NCBI GenBank assembly: GCA_009782215.1
Contig: WRKO01000009.1
Location: forward strand, 1 to 64,000
From: Oscillospiraceae bacterium
GTDB taxonomy: Bacteria; Bacillota; Clostridia; Oscillospirales; UBA929
DNA: 64,000 nucleotides
Direction of reading: 5' to 3'
Shown here one piece after another: positions 26,805-36,675 of the stretch (position 1 is the first letter of the stretch; each line of letters starts with the position of its first letter). The notes below the pieces were generated by a model. The model was not told where the DNA came from and did no database searches. It was given only the letters and a program-made list of their open reading frames with translations. A program made the translations under genes and the position numbers.

Positions 26805-27381
26805 ATTCGCTCATATCGTCGTCGGTGTCATCTTTCGGGTTATTTTTCGGTTTAAGGTTATCGGGCGCGAAAATGTACCGGCGGGCGGCGCGCTGATTTG
26901 CGCCAACCATTCCTCGCTGACAGACCCGGTTTTTATCGCCCTTGCCTTGAAACGGAAAGACCGCCCGCGCTTTATGGCGAAGAAGGAGCTTTTTAAGATA
27001 TTCGGTTTCAAGCAAATCATCATAGGCTTGGGGGCGTATCCGGTTGACCGCGGCGCGTCTGATTTGGCGGCTGTCCGAACGACGCTTCAAATCCTCAGGC
27101 AGGGACAGAATGTGCTTATTTTTCCTCACGGTCACCGTATTACGGCGGGCGGAGAGAACATGACGATGAAGAATGGCGCGGCGATGCTGGCTTTTCATTC
27201 GGGAGCGCCGCTGCTCCCGGCGTATCTGACGGCGGGGCGCAGGGTGTTTTTCGATAAAATCCAAGTGGTCTTCGGCAAGCCTTTCAACGTCGAGCAAAAG
27301 CCCGGCGTTAAGAGTTCGGAGCTATACGCGGCGCTGGCCGAGCGCTTGAAAGAGGAGATATATGCTCTCAAACCGAATTGA
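26794..27381 (+). CDS. plsC: 1-acyl-sn-glycerol-3-phosphate acyltransferase-like protein
   Basis: A membrane-associated PlsC-family acyltransferase with an N-terminal hydrophobic segment and the catalytic NHSSLTD motif (HxxxxD). Block III, which reads FPEGTR in most homologues, reads FPHGHR here, so the usual Glu and Thr in the glycerol-phosphate site are both His. The final GAPLLPAYL block is present. The protein is 195 residues long. It overlaps both neighbours. The substrate may differ from lysophosphatidate. Confidence 0.85.
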   Translation: MFYKFAHIVVGVIFRVIFRFKVIGRENVPAGGALICANHSSLTDPVFIALALKRKDRPRFMAKKELFKIFGFKQIIIGLGAYPVDRGASDLAAVRTTLQILRQGQNVLIFPHGHRITAGGENMTMKNGAAMLAFHSGAPLLPAYLTAGRRVFFDKIQVVFGKPFNVEQKPGVKSSELYAALAERLKEEIYALKPN

Positions 27382-29578
27382 AATCATCCCCAACGCGGGA
27401 TATTGCAGGGGTGTGGCCCGGGCGGTCAGGATGGCGGCGGACGCCGCGCCCTGTTATACGCTTGGCCCGCTGATTCACAATCGCCGCGCGGTGAGCGAGC
27501 TGGAAGCGGCCGGCGTGCGCGTCATAGAATCGGTGGATGAATTGCCCGAAGGCGGCACGCTGATTATCCGCACCCACGGGGCTTCGCCAGACTTATACGC
27601 CGAGCTGGAGGAGCGGGGAATCAGCTATCTGGACGCCACCTGCCCTGATGTGAGGAAGATACACACGCTTGTGTCCGCCGAAAGTGAGGGGGGAAGGCTT
27701 CTCCTTCTTTTTGGCGACCCGTCGCACCCGGAGGTAAAGGCGACCGTGGCTTGGTGCCGTGAATGCATTGTGTTTTCTGAATTTGAGCGGTTGAAAGAGC
27801 TTGCCGCGGATGCGGATAAGCCGATTACGATGGCGGCTCAGACAACCGCCGAATCGGCGATTTATGAAAAATGCCGTGAATTTCTTAAAAAAGAGTATAC
27901 AAACGCGAAAATTCTTGATACAATATGCGGTGCAACCATTTTGCGTCAGTGGCAAACGGCGGAGTTATCGCGTCGGGCGGGCTTCATGGTTGTTGTGGGA
28001 GACCCGTCGAGCGCCAACACGAGGCACTTGGCAGCGGTGTGCGAATGTCCGGTTTTTATTGTGGAGGGCGGAAACGAAGTCCGCGCTTTGATGAAAGCCA
28101 ATCAGGGCATTATGAGCGGCGTATCGCCGCTTGGCGTTACCGCAGGCGCTTCCACCCCGTCCGCCATCATTGAGGAGGTAGTGTCACATATGAATGAAGA
28201 ACTCAGCGGCCTGACGCCGCAGGACGAACAGTCCCAAGAGCAAAATCAAGAACAGCAGCTCAGCGCGGAGCCGACCTTTGAGGAAATGCTGGAGGATTCC
28301 CTGCGCCCGCTGCACACCGGCGAAAAAATCACCGGCGTCATCACCGGCATTTCGCCTACCGAGATACAGGTCGATTTGGGCAGCAAGCACGCCGCTTATA
28401 TCCCGCTGAACGAGCTGACGGACGACCCTGCCGTTGACCCCCATTCGCTGGTCAAGATTGGCGACGAAATCGAAACGTATATCATGCGCGTCAATGACGT
28501 TGAGGGGACGGCCATGCTCAGCAAGCGGCGCTTAGACACCGTTAAGAGCTGGGAAGACGTTGAATCGGCGCAGGAATCGCACGCTATATTAGAGGGAATC
28601 GTCGTTGAGGAAAACAAGGGCGGCGTTGTCGTCTCGGTCAGGGGTGTCCGTATCTTTGTGCCGGCCTCACAGACCGGGCTGCCCAGAGAGGCTCCGATGA
28701 GCGACCTTTTGAAGCAGAAGGTACGCTTGCGCGTGACAGAATTCCACCGTTCCCGCCGCCGCGTGGTCGGTTCCATCCGTTCCGTGTCGCAGGAGGATCG
28801 CCGCTCCGCCGCAAAAGCCGTGTGGGACAACGTGGAGGCCGGAAAGCAGTATAGGGGAGTCGTCAAGTCGATGACCGCGTACGGTGTTTTTGTGGATATC
28901 GGCGGTGTGGACGGGCTTGTGCATCTCTCAGAGCTTTCATGGCAGCGGCTGAAAGCGCCCACCGATTATGTCAATGTCGGCGACGAGCTGGACGTTACCG
29001 TCATCAGCGTGGATAGGGAAAAGCACCGTATCTCGCTGAGCCACCGCAAGCCGGAAGACAACCCTTGGCTGAAATTTGTCAACGTGTTCAATGTGGGCGA
29101 CGTCGTCAAGGTCAAGGTCAACAAGCTGATGGCGTTCGGCGCGTTTGCCGAAATCACTCCCGGTGTTGACGGGCTGATTCACATATCTCAGCTTTCTGAC
29201 CGCCGTATCGGAAAGCCGTCAGAAATCGTCAACGAGGGGGATACCATCGACGTCAAAATCACCGACATCGACCTCATCCGTAAAAAGATTTCTCTCTCTG
29301 CCCGCGCCCTCATTGAGCCGGAGCCGGAAGAGCAGTTTGACACCGGGCCGGACGAAATTGTCGCCATGTCTGACGAGACGGAAACGATTGTCGCGGAGAA
29401 GCTGGACATTGCGCCGGAAGAGCCGCCTGCCGAATCCACTGAGACCATTGAAATCATTGAAGAAGAGCCGGTGGCGGAGACGGCTGAAGAACCGGCCGAA
29501 ACGCACATAGAAGAAACCGCGGAAGAAGCTGCCGAAGAAACGAAAGAAGAGACTCCCGCAGAGTCATCGGAAGAATAA
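27362..29578 (+). CDS. ispH-rpsA: Fused IspH (HMBPP reductase) and ribosomal protein S1
   Basis: The N-terminal half (about 1-285) is IspH, the [4Fe-4S] enzyme making IPP and DMAPP in the MEP pathway. Cluster ligands are Cys15, Cys94 and Cys189, with the substrate residues in GPLIHN, RTHGAS, SHPEV and SSANT. The C-terminal half has four S1 RNA-binding repeats at about 319-390, 405-475, 492-562 and 578-650. An acidic tail rich in Glu, Thr and Ala ends the protein. The fusion is uninterrupted and is a known Clostridial arrangement. With ispA and dxs also present, the MEP route is used. Confidence 0.96.
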   Translation: MLSNRIEIIPNAGYCRGVARAVRMAADAAPCYTLGPLIHNRRAVSELEAAGVRVIESVDELPEGGTLIIRTHGASPDLYAELEERGISYLDATCPDVRKIHTLVSAESEGGRLLLLFGDPSHPEVKATVAWCRECIVFSEFERLKELAADADKPITMAAQTTAESAIYEKCREFLKKEYTNAKILDTICGATILRQWQTAELSRRAGFMVVVGDPSSANTRHLAAVCECPVFIVEGGNEVRALMKANQGIMSGVSPLGVTAGASTPSAIIEEVVSHMNEELSGLTPQDEQSQEQNQEQQLSAEPTFEEMLEDSLRPLHTGEKITGVITGISPTEIQVDLGSKHAAYIPLNELTDDPAVDPHSLVKIGDEIETYIMRVNDVEGTAMLSKRRLDTVKSWEDVESAQESHAILEGIVVEENKGGVVVSVRGVRIFVPASQTGLPREAPMSDLLKQKVRLRVTEFHRSRRRVVGSIRSVSQEDRRSAAKAVWDNVEAGKQYRGVVKSMTAYGVFVDIGGVDGLVHLSELSWQRLKAPTDYVNVGDELDVTVISVDREKHRISLSHRKPEDNPWLKFVNVFNVGDVVKVKVNKLMAFGAFAEITPGVDGLIHISQLSDRRIGKPSEIVNEGDTIDVKITDIDLIRKKISLSARALIEPEPEEQFDTGPDEIVAMSDETETIVAEKLDIAPEEPPAESTETIEIIEEEPVAETAEEPAETHIEETAEEAAEETKEETPAESSEE

Positions 29579-31281: not shown

Positions 31282-31323
31282 AGTTGATAGTTGACAGTGG
31301 ATAGTTGATAGTTGACAGTTGGG
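31282..31323. repeat. Heptanucleotide tandem repeat, copy 1 (six units)
   Basis: Six consecutive 7-base units of the type AGTTGAT, AGTTGAC or AGTGGAT run from 31282 to 31323, directly upstream of a toxin-antitoxin promoter. Similar arrays occur at 32049 and, inside a coding region, at 36212. Confidence 0.9.
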
Positions 31324-31388
31324 GGGACGGGGGGTTTACAAGAGTAGGGGGATGCGTTATAATGTAGTCAAAAGGGGGTGCTTCTGTG
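31317..31388 (+). repeat. Duplicated promoter-leader-start cassette, copy 1
   Basis: Bases 31317-31388 match 32077-32148 (constant offset of 760) with three mismatches. The segment covers the promoter TTTACA (31335-31340), a 17-base spacer, TATAAT (31358-31363), the G-rich ribosome site and the GTG start codon. Confidence 0.9.
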
Positions 31389-31613
31389 AACGAGACTGTT
31401 ATGAACGCGAGTGCGTTGCCGTCGTTTTTGGCGGAGACGCTTAAAACCGGCAGAATACGGGTGCGAGAGAACAACCGCGTCGTTACGATAGAGCCTGTTG
31501 ACGAAAAGCCGGATTGCACAGCCGGATTGCGCGGTATTCTTGCGGATTGTCCCGAAATGTCCGCAGATAAATTCGCAGAGCGCAAACGCGCGGACAAGGT
31601 GCTTGACCGATGA
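31386..31613 (+). CDS. Antitoxin of a PIN-domain toxin-antitoxin pair
   Basis: A 75-residue acidic and basic mixed protein beginning with GTG after a G-rich ribosome site. It contains a short strand-rich part (KTGRIRVRENNRVVTIEPV) and a helical C-terminus (EMSADKFAERKRADKVLDR), as in small antitoxins that wrap round a PIN toxin. I cannot assign it to a named antitoxin fold with confidence. Its end overlaps the toxin start by four bases, which strongly supports a two-gene module. Confidence 0.75.
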   Translation: MNETVMNASALPSFLAETLKTGRIRVRENNRVVTIEPVDEKPDCTAGLRGILADCPEMSADKFAERKRADKVLDR

Positions 31614-32029
31614 CCCGCCGATACGTTCTCGACGCTTGCGCATTGCTTGCCTTGCTCCGCGACGAAGAAGGGGCGGATATGGTCGCCGGCGTCATCAACG
31701 CCGCAAATGCCGGTGAAGCCGACGCCGCAATCCATAAAGCCAATTTGCTTGAAGTCTACTATGACGTCTACCGCTTCGCCGGCAAAGCAAAGGCCGACGA
31801 AATCATCCGGGAAATAAAAGCCTGCCCGATATCCGTTATCTCCGATATCAGTGACGCCCTGTTTGAAGAAGCGGGGCGTTTTAAGGCGTCGTACAACATC
31901 TCCTTCGCCGATACCTTCGCCCTCGCAACCGCCTCCGTCACCGGCGCCGCCCTGCTCACGACCGATCACCACGAAATGGATAGAATAGAACAGACAGAGC
32001 AAACTGTCAAATTCCAATGGGTACGCTGA
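31610..32029 (+). CDS. PIN-domain ribonuclease toxin (VapC-like)
   Basis: The PIN fold is visible from the N-terminal Asp (YVLDACALLALL) through a conserved Glu (ANLLEVYYDVY) to the C-terminal acidic pair (FADTFALATAS and LLTTDHHEMD). These four acidic residues bind the metal that cleaves RNA. Length is 139. It overlaps its antitoxin and is followed by a second copy of the promoter cassette. Confidence 0.85.
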   Translation: MTRRYVLDACALLALLRDEEGADMVAGVINAANAGEADAAIHKANLLEVYYDVYRFAGKAKADEIIREIKACPISVISDISDALFEEAGRFKASYNISFADTFALATASVTGAALLTTDHHEMDRIEQTEQTVKFQWVR

Positions 32030-32048
32030 CCCACACAGCCCACGGCTC

Positions 32049-32083
32049 AGTTGATAGTGGATAGTTGACAGTTGATAGTTGGG
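32049..32083. repeat. Heptanucleotide tandem repeat, copy 2 (five units)
   Basis: Five 7-base units (AGTTGAT, AGTGGAT, AGTTGAC, AGTTGAT, AGTTGGG) precede the second toxin-antitoxin promoter. Unit order and number differ from copy 1. Confidence 0.9.
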
Positions 32084-32148
32084 GGGGCGGGGGGTTTACA
32101 AGAGTAGGGGGATGCGTTATAATGTAGTCAAAAGGGGGGGCGTCTGTG
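32077..32148 (+). repeat. Duplicated promoter-leader-start cassette, copy 2
   Basis: This is the second copy of the 72-bp segment: TTTACA (32095-32100), 17-base spacer, TATAAT (32118-32123), G-rich ribosome site and a GTG at 32146. The gene behind it is unrelated to that behind copy 1. Confidence 0.9.
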
Positions 32149-32355
32149 ATGAGTGAAATCCTGTTTTATATCGAAGAGTCCGCAGACGGAGGGTTTGAAG
32201 CCAGCGCGGTGAACCATTCCATCTTTACGCAGTGCGACGACTACGCCGAACTGCCCGACACGCTGCGCGACGCTGTGCGCTGCCACTTCGACGAGGGAGA
32301 AGTCCCCGCGCTGATTCGGATGCACCTCGTGAGGGACGAGGTCATCGCCGTATGA
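32146..32355 (+). CDS. hicB: Short HicB-like antitoxin
   Basis: A 69-residue protein with the N-terminal strand-loop-helix pattern of the HicB/DUF1902 fold (ILFYIEESADGGFEASAVNHSIFTQ, read in part, then ELPDTLRDAVRCHF). There is no C-terminal DNA-binding domain, so it may neutralise but not bind DNA. The GTG at 32146 matches the start position in the duplicated cassette; an ATG immediately follows. It overlaps hicA by four bases. Confidence 0.75.
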   Translation: MMSEILFYIEESADGGFEASAVNHSIFTQCDDYAELPDTLRDAVRCHFDEGEVPALIRMHLVRDEVIAV

Positions 32356-32585
32356 AATTGCCGCGCGATGTTGACGCAGACCAGTTGGTTCGCGTCTTGG
32401 TGCGTTGCGGTTACAGCGTATCAAGGCAGACCGGAAGCCACATCAGACTGCAAAAACAGGACGGAACACACCAAATAACCATCCCAAATCACAGCCCCAT
32501 CAAAATCGGGACGCTGCAAAGCATTTTGAAAGATGTTTGCCGCGAAAACAACATGGGCATGGCGGACTTGTCTGCTATGCTATAA
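32352..32585 (+). CDS. hicA: HicA-family mRNA interferase toxin
   Basis: The 77-residue protein is a textbook HicA: DADQLVRVLVRCGYSV, then the catalytic RQTGSHIRL (His present), then TIPNHSPIKIGTLQSILK. The ATG at 32352 overlaps the antitoxin stop. The order is antitoxin then toxin, the reverse of the hicAB pair at 9141. The two modules are therefore not recent copies of one another. Confidence 0.88.
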   Translation: MKLPRDVDADQLVRVLVRCGYSVSRQTGSHIRLQKQDGTHQITIPNHSPIKIGTLQSILKDVCRENNMGMADLSAML

Positions 32586-32772: not shown

Positions 32773-35700
32773 ATGAAACGCTCAACACTCAAAAAATCCA
32801 CCGCAAGACTCCTCGTCGCGGTCATGCTCCTCTCCATCTGGCTACCGACGGTGGTTTTGCCGACGGTGGCGGTGGTGACGGATTTTGAGAAATTGAACCT
32901 CGCAATAATCGCGTTCAACGGCGGCAGTGGGGATATGGTGATAGAGATTAGTGGTGAGATAGAGGTTGAAGAGACTCTGAATATAACGAACACTTCTGAC
33001 ACACTCACAATCACGGGCGGTGAGCTTAAACGCTACGTTGGGGACTTTTTTGATTCTACTAAAGTAGCACATCTAGGCTCGTTTTTTTTCGTGGATGAGG
33101 ATGCTACGCTTATTTTGCAGGGCGTTACGATTGACGGAAGTTTGGACGTGAATGACATTAACCCACCTAGTGGTTCTCCTGTGCCGGAGACGCTTATTTT
33201 TGTAGCAGGGACATTTGAAATGGAAACAGACGCGGTGCTGAAGGATAATATACTTATTGCTGATCTGGGAGAGGAACGCAGACCCAATAACGGCGGCGCG
33301 GTGATTATAGCCGGCGGCGGCGAGTTCAATATGAAAGGCGGTACGATTAGCGGCAACAAAGCCAACGTAGGCGCTGCTGTAGCTATTGCCGAGAACGGCG
33401 AGTTCAACATGAACGGTGGTACGATTAGCGGCAATACAACCGAGGGAAGCGGCGGTGCTGTAGCTATTGCCGAGAACGGCACGTTCAACATGAGCGGCGG
33501 GACGATTAGCGACAACGAATCTGGATGGTGGGGCGGCGCGGTAGTTGTAAGCGGCGCGTTCTATATGAGCGGCACAGCCGTGATTACGGACAATAATGCA
33601 GAAACCGGCGGTGCTGTGTATGTAGGTGCGGATGGCGCGTTCATCATGGGCGGCGGGACGATTAGCAGCAACGAAGCCGATACATTCGGCGGCGCGGTGT
33701 ACATACGAGGCGGCTTGTTTATGGATTGTACGTGTGATGATTCATGCTGTGATCCTTGTTTGTGTGACGGCGATTCAGTTTGCGAGAACTGTGTCTTCTC
33801 TAGCGGCACGTTTGACATGGAGGGCGGCACGATTAGCGGCAACGAAGCTGGATGGGACGGCGGCGCGGTGTATATAAGCGACGGCACGTTTACCATGAGC
33901 GACGGCACGGTTAGCGGCAACGAAGCCGAACGAGGCGGCGCGGTGTATGTAAGCGACGGCACGTTTGACATGGAGGGCGGCACGATTAGTGTCAACGAGG
34001 CAGACACCGGCGGCGCGGTGTATATAGGTGGCGGCATATTCGCCATGACCGGCGGAGAGATTACAGATAACGTATCGACAGACAAAAGCGGCGCGGTATT
34101 CGTAGAAGGTGACGGCACATTTAGTTTAGGCGACGCCTTGATTGAAGATAACGATGGAATAAAGATGACGGGCGGAAGTTTGATACTCAGCGATGACATT
34201 ACGCTGAGAGAGCAAATCTGTATTGTGCCGCCGGGCCCAACCGAACAACCGACTGTACTTATAGACGGCAAAAACAAGTCCATCAAGAGAGGTATCGCGG
34301 GTGACCTTATCACCATAGACGCCAGTACGCTTACGGAAGACCGAACCGGAACCCTTACGCTCAAAGACATCATCCTAGACGGCAACAACGCCGTCGCGCC
34401 TTATGCCACAAACGGCGGCGGGTCACTTGTACGCGCCGTGGGTGCTGACGTCGGAGTAGGCGAAGTCATCCTCGACGGCACGGTGCTGCAAAACAACATC
34501 TTCACCGGCGGCACGGGCGGCGGCGTATTTGTGGACGGCTACGGCAAGCTCACCATGAACGCAGACTCAATCATTCGCGGCAATACCGCTGAATGGGGCG
34601 GCGGTGTGTATGTGGGTCAAGACGGCGAGTTTACCATGAAGGCAAACTCAGTCATTCGCGGCAATACCGCTGATGAAAATGGCGGCGGCGTGTATGTGGG
34701 CACTGACGTCGAGTTTACCATGAACGGCATCATCGAAGAGAATGAAGCCGAGGAAGGCGGCGGTGTGTATGTGTATGTTGCCGGCGAACTTATCATGCTG
34801 CCCGGCTCTAGGATTAGCGGCAACCTTGCCGAGTACGGCGGCGGCGTATATTTGAGCCACAACGAATTTGCAAGCGAGGGCGGCGCATTTACCATGAGAG
34901 GCGGCGAGATTTCTTTCAACACGGCGACCGAGTTTGGCGGCGGCGTAATTGTTCGTGCAGAAAGTACGTTTGACATGGTCTTCGGCGCGATTGGGTTTAA
35001 TGAAGCGTTGATGGAAACTGTTGTATATGAAGGCGGGCATGATGTGGATGTGAATTTGGACGCGGGCGGCGTATTCACCATGCAGGGCGGCGCAATCGCG
35101 AATTTTGAGGATAAGATAGAAAACGCCGTTTATATCTACGACGAGTTGGATAATGATACCGGCTTTGCTTTCCCCGGCTCGGCTGGTAACGGTATCTTGA
35201 TAGCGTGGGACGGCGTCAGTAAAGAAACTGACACCGGATTGACGGTGTACTCGAACGGGGTTGAAGTGGATAACCCGGTGGATGGCAAAGGAACGGCTTG
35301 GTGGGTAAATCCGCTCCATTTCATGGACATGGGCGGCACTGCTGGCTTCATGTCCGCGCCGGACGCGGAGCCGAATGAAGACTGCGGCAACCCGAACTGT
35401 GAGTGCGACCCGTGTTCCGGCATCGGCTGCGAGTGCGACCCCGGCAGCGGCAACGGGAACGGCAACGGCGGCGATTATGTATACGTTTCGCCGTCGCCGA
35501 GCGCGGAGCCGACGAAGGACAGGGATGTTGTGTACATCTACGGCGACGGGGAGCTGATTAAGGAGTTTTCGCTGAACGAGCTTTGGGCGGATACCGAGGG
35601 CTTGGCGATGCTGATGACGGTCGAGGGCGAGTATGAGGAGCTGCGGATTGACGTGCCGGTTTGGTGGTTTGGGGAAGAGGAGAGAGCCGGCGCGGAGCTG

Positions 35701-36675
35701 GTGGTCTATAATGAGACGCACGGGGCTGCGGGGATAACGGCGGCGAACGTGGCGGCTTTGGGCGACGGCGCGGAGACGGTGTCGTATCTGCTGGTGAAGG
35801 GGAGCGTGGCGCTGTCGGCGCTGGCGGACGGGACGGAGCTGGAGGACTGGTATGCGTACGGCGCGCCTGTGGTGCTGGGGCTGCCGGGGTTTGACCCGGA
35901 GGCGGACGCGGACGGCGGCGACTGGGTCGCGGTGCGGGTGCTGGCGGACGGGACGGAGAAGATTGTGCCGCTGAGCGTGCTGCGCGGCGAGTTGGTGACG
36001 GTGCTTGCGGCGTCGGCGGGGACGTACGACGTGCGGGCGAACCCGAAGGCGTTTGGGGACGTGTCAGGCTGGGCGACGGCTGCGATAAAGTTTGCGGCGG
36101 CGCGCGGAATCGTGGCCGGCGTGGGCGACGGGCTGTTTGCGCCGGAGCGCGCGGTGACGCGTGCGGAGTTTGTGACGATGCTGGTGCAGATGCTGGGGAT
36201 AGACAGTGTACAGTTGATAGTTGATAGTGGAGAGTTGATTGTGTTTGAGGACGTTTTAGAGGGCGCTTGGTATTATGAGCATGTCATGCTGGCGGCGGCG
36301 CTGGGCGTGACGGCGGGCGTCGGCGGCGGGAAGTTCGCGCCAGACCGTGTGATTACGCGGGAGGAAATGCTGACGATGGCGTGCGCGGCGCTGGCGAAGT
36401 ACGGCCTGCTGGACGATACGGTGTGCGGCTTGGAGCATTGCGCGGGCGAGTGCGGCGAGGAGGGCTGTCTGGCGGGGTATACGGATGTTGACGACGTCTC
36501 GGCGTTCGCGCTGGACGCGGTGACGACGATGGTCTGCCACAGCTTGATTGTCGGCACCGGCACGGGGGACACGCTGAGTCCCAAGAGCGCGGCGTCCAGA
36601 GCGGAAGCGGCGCAGTTCATCGCCAACGCGGTGCGGTACGTGGTGCCGGACTACAGCTCGCTGATAGAGGACTGA
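32773..36675 (+). CDS. Beta-helix SLH surface protein, 1300 residues
   Basis: A Sec signal peptide (RLLVAVMLLSIWLP) opens the protein. Residues about 170-456 and 563-776 are right-handed beta-helix repeats, each close to GGTISGNEA plus GGAVYV and TFDM elements, as in polymorphic adhesin-like proteins. A Cys-rich insert (CTCDDSCCDPCLC) interrupts the helix near residue 320, and another (CGNPNCECDPCSGIGC) lies near 875. Three SLH repeats occupy about 1090-1295. The first SLH linker contains the heptanucleotide repeat at 36212. It is likely an adhesin or fibre-binding wall protein; the ligand is unknown. gdhA begins four bases after its stop. Confidence 0.87.
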   Translation: MKRSTLKKSTARLLVAVMLLSIWLPTVVLPTVAVVTDFEKLNLAIIAFNGGSGDMVIEISGEIEVEETLNITNTSDTLTITGGELKRYVGDFFDSTKVAHLGSFFFVDEDATLILQGVTIDGSLDVNDINPPSGSPVPETLIFVAGTFEMETDAVLKDNILIADLGEERRPNNGGAVIIAGGGEFNMKGGTISGNKANVGAAVAIAENGEFNMNGGTISGNTTEGSGGAVAIAENGTFNMSGGTISDNESGWWGGAVVVSGAFYMSGTAVITDNNAETGGAVYVGADGAFIMGGGTISSNEADTFGGAVYIRGGLFMDCTCDDSCCDPCLCDGDSVCENCVFSSGTFDMEGGTISGNEAGWDGGAVYISDGTFTMSDGTVSGNEAERGGAVYVSDGTFDMEGGTISVNEADTGGAVYIGGGIFAMTGGEITDNVSTDKSGAVFVEGDGTFSLGDALIEDNDGIKMTGGSLILSDDITLREQICIVPPGPTEQPTVLIDGKNKSIKRGIAGDLITIDASTLTEDRTGTLTLKDIILDGNNAVAPYATNGGGSLVRAVGADVGVGEVILDGTVLQNNIFTGGTGGGVFVDGYGKLTMNADSIIRGNTAEWGGGVYVGQDGEFTMKANSVIRGNTADENGGGVYVGTDVEFTMNGIIEENEAEEGGGVYVYVAGELIMLPGSRISGNLAEYGGGVYLSHNEFASEGGAFTMRGGEISFNTATEFGGGVIVRAESTFDMVFGAIGFNEALMETVVYEGGHDVDVNLDAGGVFTMQGGAIANFEDKIENAVYIYDELDNDTGFAFPGSAGNGILIAWDGVSKETDTGLTVYSNGVEVDNPVDGKGTAWWVNPLHFMDMGGTAGFMSAPDAEPNEDCGNPNCECDPCSGIGCECDPGSGNGNGNGGDYVYVSPSPSAEPTKDRDVVYIYGDGELIKEFSLNELWADTEGLAMLMTVEGEYEELRIDVPVWWFGEEERAGAELVVYNETHGAAGITAANVAALGDGAETVSYLLVKGSVALSALADGTELEDWYAYGAPVVLGLPGFDPEADADGGDWVAVRVLADGTEKIVPLSVLRGELVTVLAASAGTYDVRANPKAFGDVSGWATAAIKFAAARGIVAGVGDGLFAPERAVTRAEFVTMLVQMLGIDSVQLIVDSGELIVFEDVLEGAWYYEHVMLAAALGVTAGVGGGKFAPDRVITREEMLTMACAALAKYGLLDDTVCGLEHCAGECGEEGCLAGYTDVDDVSAFALDAVTTMVCHSLIVGTGTGDTLSPKSAASRAEAAQFIANAVRYVVPDYSSLIED
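36212..36239. repeat. Heptanucleotide repeat inside the SLH coding region
   Basis: Four 7-base units (AGTTGAT, AGTTGAT, AGTGGAG, AGTTGAT) lie in frame between the first and second SLH repeats, encoding roughly QLIVDSGELI. They match the intergenic arrays at 31282 and 32049. Confidence 0.85.

Follow-up and report, generated by a model that had tools for sequence, protein, structure and literature searches.

Two toxin-antitoxin (TA) modules lie side by side on the forward strand of the window, by which we mean the whole 64,000-nucleotide stretch analysed (G000:C9:1-64000, from a draft genome of 2.36 Mb in 54 contigs). The first consists of a 75-aa antitoxin (31386-31613), assigned to no Pfam, NCBIfam or PADLOC family, and a 139-aa PIN-domain toxin (31610-32029; PF01850, 8.1e-14) whose open reading frame, on the same strand, shares 4 nt with the end of the antitoxin gene, the arrangement of a PIN/VapC-type module. 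The second consists of a short HicB antitoxin of 69 aa, counted from its GTG (32146-32355), and a 77-aa HicA toxin (32352-32585; PF07927, 1.1e-16; HicA-like in PADLOC), with the hicB frame overlapping hicA by 4 nt. The HicA domain is that of the HicBA type II modules. An earlier reading, made from the sequence alone, had described the two pairs as different, PIN and HicBA, and the toxin families (PF01850 and PF07927) agree with that description.

Neither antitoxin has a Pfam match, and both were recognised by position, size and homologues beside the same type of toxin. Searches of Pfam, NCBIfam, PADLOC and PDB gave no credible match for either of them, and the PIN antitoxin still had none in Pfam or PDB when a 6-sequence alignment was used and AbrB, RHH and Phd folds were sought. 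A single-sequence fold model of this protein reached a mean pLDDT of 54, and the antitoxin fold predictions were too poor for structure searching. A homologue of the PIN antitoxin in G062 (62% identity) aligns with it from residue 1, and homologous antitoxins followed by a toxin-like frame were found in G062, G021 and G009. HicB has homologues in the sister genome G001 (83%) and, beside HicA, in G008 (62%). Both align gap-free from residue 1 at the GTG, which rules out a hicB start at the ATG one codon later. Viral contigs held two weak relatives of HicB and none of the PIN antitoxin.

A direct repeat reaching through both start codons

Pairwise comparison of 31317-31388 with 32077-32148 found 69 of 72 positions identical at a constant offset of 760, as the sequence-only reading had it, with mismatches at 31327, 31379 and 31382 only. 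Identity is unbroken for at most 51 nt (31328-31378). The match was correctly seen, but its limits were drawn too short: it reaches 28 nt further 5', so that the full forward-strand repeat is 101 nt at 94% identity (31289-31389 and 32049-32149), and its 5' part belongs to a genome-wide repeat. Three further mismatches in this extension, at 31295, 31309 and 31316, bring the differing positions to six. The window holds exactly two copies of a 48-mer taken from the core, and no match to it with up to 3 mismatches was obtained in 100 dinucleotide shuffles, which rules out a chance match.

Each copy carries a predicted near-consensus promoter on the forward strand, P1 (31335-31363) and P2 (32095-32123), in which TTTACA and TATAAT are separated by a 17-nt spacer (consensus score 11/12 at both). 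A short leader and an AGGGGG ribosome site follow. In copy 1 the ribosome site, spacer and GTG read AAAGGGGG (31371-31388, forward strand), with the GTG at 31386 aligning with residue 1 of the G062 homologue. In both copies, identity stops 1 nt beyond the GTG. Because this GTG corresponds to the start codon in homologues of both antitoxins and the match ends 1 nt past it, the repeat amounts to a complete 5' expression unit; the claim that the duplicate spans -35, -10, leader, ribosome site and GTG start holds, with the two promoter boxes as predicted elements. The pattern TTKACA-N17-TATAATG has 19 sites in the genome (a reversed control pattern has 0), and among these the spacer is common only to P1 and P2. 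AGGGGG also lies 5' of another gene in the window, that of an SLH protein at 32773. RNA structure around the two ribosome sites was not unusual (z 1.1 and 0.5).

Dispersed heptads and a unique core

The 5' end of the repeat lies in tandem heptads that could be read directly from the sequence. Upstream of copy 1, on the forward strand, there are five units (AGTTGAT, AGTTGAC or AGTGGAT) plus AGTTG (31282-31321), and upstream of copy 2 there are four units plus AGTTG (32049-32081). Heptads of the form AGTTGAY followed by G-runs, up to about 31334, make up the dispersed part of the duplicate and resemble the short tandemly repeated repetitive (STRR) sequences. AGTTGAY heptads, often with G-runs after them, recur at about a dozen further sites across the genome, most of them within ordinary protein genes and some in the 16S rRNA gene, so this 5' part consists of tandem 7-nt units present at many unrelated sites. 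The match to the nearest other site (C13:29198) runs up to query position 46, equivalent to 31334, and covers the first 18 nt of the 72. Two loci carry the heptads in the sister genome, while tracts of three strict units were absent from 55 other relatives. Among the matches listed (loci L090-L203), they are common in (filamentous) cyanobacteria and Bacteroidales and less frequent in Clostridia and Chloroflexi. A plasmid search returned the heptad part only, on seven E. coli plasmids.

The promoter-leader-start core (about 31335-31389) has a different distribution. It has no third copy in the genome, and BLAST found none in 56 relatives or in 390 other members of the class. Exact searches with a 30-mer of the core gave no hit in species-representative genomes or viral contigs, and a phage search found none. 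The duplicate is thus a composite of a dispersed-repeat 5' part and a promoter-leader core unique to two sites. The sequence-only reading had named a general repeat at many non-toxin loci as the finding that would undo it; this describes the first 18 of the 72 nt only, and for the other 54 nt the genome has no further match.

The heptads within coding and rRNA genes are a more unusual finding than the promoter duplication, and a separate puzzle. The literature searched contained no mention of the heptad sequence itself. In IspG of the source genome (L005 1501-1535) and of the sister genome (L211), an in-frame tract inserts QLSTINYQLST-like residues immediately ahead of the conserved AVMGCxVNGPGEA motif, and IspG of G002, G003, G004 and G005 is without the insert. 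Most other tracts also lie inside long open frames (L003, L004, L006/L011, L010, L012 and L014 in the source genome, L064 in the sister genome, and 36210-36237 in the window). Judged by eye, the host frames resemble those of a decarboxylase, two MurE-like ligases, an acyltransferase E2 linker (two tracts), a Zn-dehydrogenase, a methionine gamma-lyase-like enzyme, an SLH protein and a laccase-domain protein. The copy number is nearly always four units plus AGTT, and in tracts read in the AGTTGAY sense the AGTGGA variant removes an in-frame TGA. Such in-gene tracts are reminiscent of the Rickettsia palindromic elements. In the V1 region of the source 16S rRNA, assigned by an RF00177 match from L088 8285, heptads occupy both arms of an enlarged stem (L088 8382-8505, equivalent to C10:78381-78504), and the sister genome has a tract at the matching 16S site (L060 783-810).

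Origin of the duplicated unit

In the sister genome, which is the nearest relative, a block of plsC, ispH-rpsA and GH18-SLH is collinear with 26.5-31.2 kb of the window. A kinase-like ORF then follows, with no TA module after GH18-SLH, and in G003 a two-component system stands there. The ground after GH18-SLH is thus variable in the genus. Within the collinear block, 27362-29578 reads as an ORF that fuses IspH (LytB) to ribosomal-protein-S1-type repeats, also collinear in the sister genome; IspH-S1 fusions occur in several Clostridia. The orthologous GH18-SLH proteins of the two genomes are 73% identical, and the 3 mismatches in 72 therefore make the duplication young relative to the split from this relative.

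Both TA types are present in the sister genome only as decayed pieces at separate loci (contigs C38 and C34). The PIN piece (L025 1450-1887, C38) lies right after a tRNA-like sequence, and an internal deletion near a KADE-coding microhomology has fused its antitoxin to its toxin. The HicB piece (L210 1543-2139, C34) is cut at residue 53, keeps its own promoter and is joined to another small ORF. It is bracketed by a different direct repeat, with copies of 63 bp at 94% identity lying 513 bp apart, which also carry GC-rich palindromes. TA modules bracketed by intergenic direct repeats were thus met twice in a small sample, with two different repeats, which is suggestive of repeat-mediated movement. 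The leader of hicB in the sister genome has the same layout as the cassette (TTGACG-18-TATAGT, AAGGGGG, ATG), with a similarity that was not significant (shuffle P 0.06) and may reflect only shared promoter and ribosome-site motifs. A choice of donor module from the leaders of HicB and PIN homologues was likewise not significant (P 0.06 to 0.16), and no close intermediate carrying a single module behind a single cassette turned up.

We consider the 101-bp repeat to be, probably, a recent local duplication of one module's 5' unit that was captured by the neighbouring TA module through recombination. Heptads, a near-consensus vegetative promoter, leader, ribosome site and start codon of one module would have been copied locally and recombined onto the coding sequence of an unrelated neighbour, giving the order repeat, PIN pair, repeat, HicBA pair. 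The heptad tract would be a plausible substrate for such recombination. Promoter capture is favoured because it predicts identity that ends at the start codon; this boundary, and a core confined to two sites, make promoter capture or recombination, already suggested by the sequence-only reading, the best explanation. Each module would then start from the same promoter, probably a constitutive one. A RecA-type deletion between the direct repeats could remove the PIN module in one step and leave an intact repeat-hicBA unit.

The main rival is that an incoming TA cassette bearing the same repeat and promoter, as a circle or a transferred piece, was integrated by homologous recombination into the resident copy. 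The alternation of repeat and module fits such an event exactly. TA modules are described as mobile, and clustered TA islands of mixed classes are known, which tandem duplication does not explain (PMC2701414); the second TA piece bracketed by another direct repeat, in the sister genome, points the same way. However, integration needs a donor that already carried the unique promoter, and searches of relatives, sampled class members and viral contigs turned up no such module, so that we regard it as possible but rather unlikely.

A further alternative is that selection keeps the two promoters identical as binding sites for a shared regulator or for the TA complexes, which would be true co-regulation. 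The two toxin systems do have the same expression signal, a near-identical predicted promoter, leader and start, as had been claimed, and 31328 to 31378 is identical in both copies. Yet copies made recently should be identical even if no selection acts on them, and a search of the cassette for inverted repeats, with arms of 6 nt or longer, one mismatch and a loop of at most 12 nt allowed, found none. HicB proteins frequently, though not universally, carry a C-terminal DNA-binding domain. The HicB described here ends at 69 aa with no HTH or RHH match in Pfam and, at about 68-69 aa, leaves no room for such a domain. The TA survey attributes DNA binding only to fused HTH or RHH domains and presumes that a HicB domain by itself does not bind (PMC2701414). 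With no palindrome, a HicB of 68-69 aa and a plain near-consensus promoter, the suggested co-regulation finds no support, and we judge it highly unlikely. Identical promoters before two TA systems need not imply co-regulation. No forward-strand terminator was called between 30900 and 33000, so read-through is possible and transcripts from P1 may run on into hicBA. If the modules are co-expressed, such read-through would be an equally simple cause.

More doubtful still is a reading in which the repeat-promoter-start unit serves as an exchange platform, with TA coding regions swapped by recombination at the heptads, as an integrase-free analogue of promoter-bearing gene cassettes. We give the least credence to two others. 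The first, in which the 72 bp are simply a scattered repeat unconnected with TA genes in particular, would suit the heptads and G-runs, which recur at about a dozen further places, mostly in non-TA genes, but is refuted for the core in this assembly by the lack of another genomic copy. The second, an assembly artefact in which the repeat led a short-read assembler to duplicate or join two loci, is conceivable in a 54-contig draft with a multi-copy heptad repeat, but the copies differ at six positions, both genes behind them are intact, and ordinary read pairs should span copies lying within 1 kb.

Relation to known systems

The heptads are like the cyanobacterial STRR sequences in being 7-nt tandem units that are dispersed, intergenic and also found inside a structural RNA gene. 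STRR have been described within RNase P RNA (Vioque 1997, as cited in PMC2858038) and in a promoter region (PMC2670836). Unlike the cyanobacterial sequences, those described here are non-cyanobacterial, have a near-constant four units plus AGTT, and lie mostly inside protein genes.

Mobile promoters and promoter capture have been described by Matus-Garcia et al. 2012 and van Passel et al. 2014, as cited in PMC8049555 and PMC9944727. Going by those citing accounts, the present case shares with mobile promoters a near-identical promoter sequence before non-homologous genes in one genome, and differs from them in consisting of two side-by-side copies only, with no dispersed family and no sign of transfer. 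The closely spaced TA pairs of different classes resemble the TA islands of a 2009 survey (PMC2701414); in its passages on islands the survey describes clustering but no duplicated 5' unit common to the pairs, as seen here. The order of repeat, module and repeat is also that of superintegron TA cassettes, unlike which the repeat here contains a promoter and a start codon.

Selection experiments in E. coli and B. subtilis have yielded promoter capture through spontaneous tandem duplication or illegitimate recombination (PMC11111574). As in those experiments, a promoter appears to have been copied beside another coding region without a transposase, whereas the event here is deduced from sequence and not from experimental selection. 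Promoter capture, mobile promoters and TA islands are already known, and the present locus is a tidy, fairly ordinary new instance. If the capture reading is true, it would offer a clean natural case in which a newly acquired TA pair gains expression at once through its neighbour's promoter and start codon.
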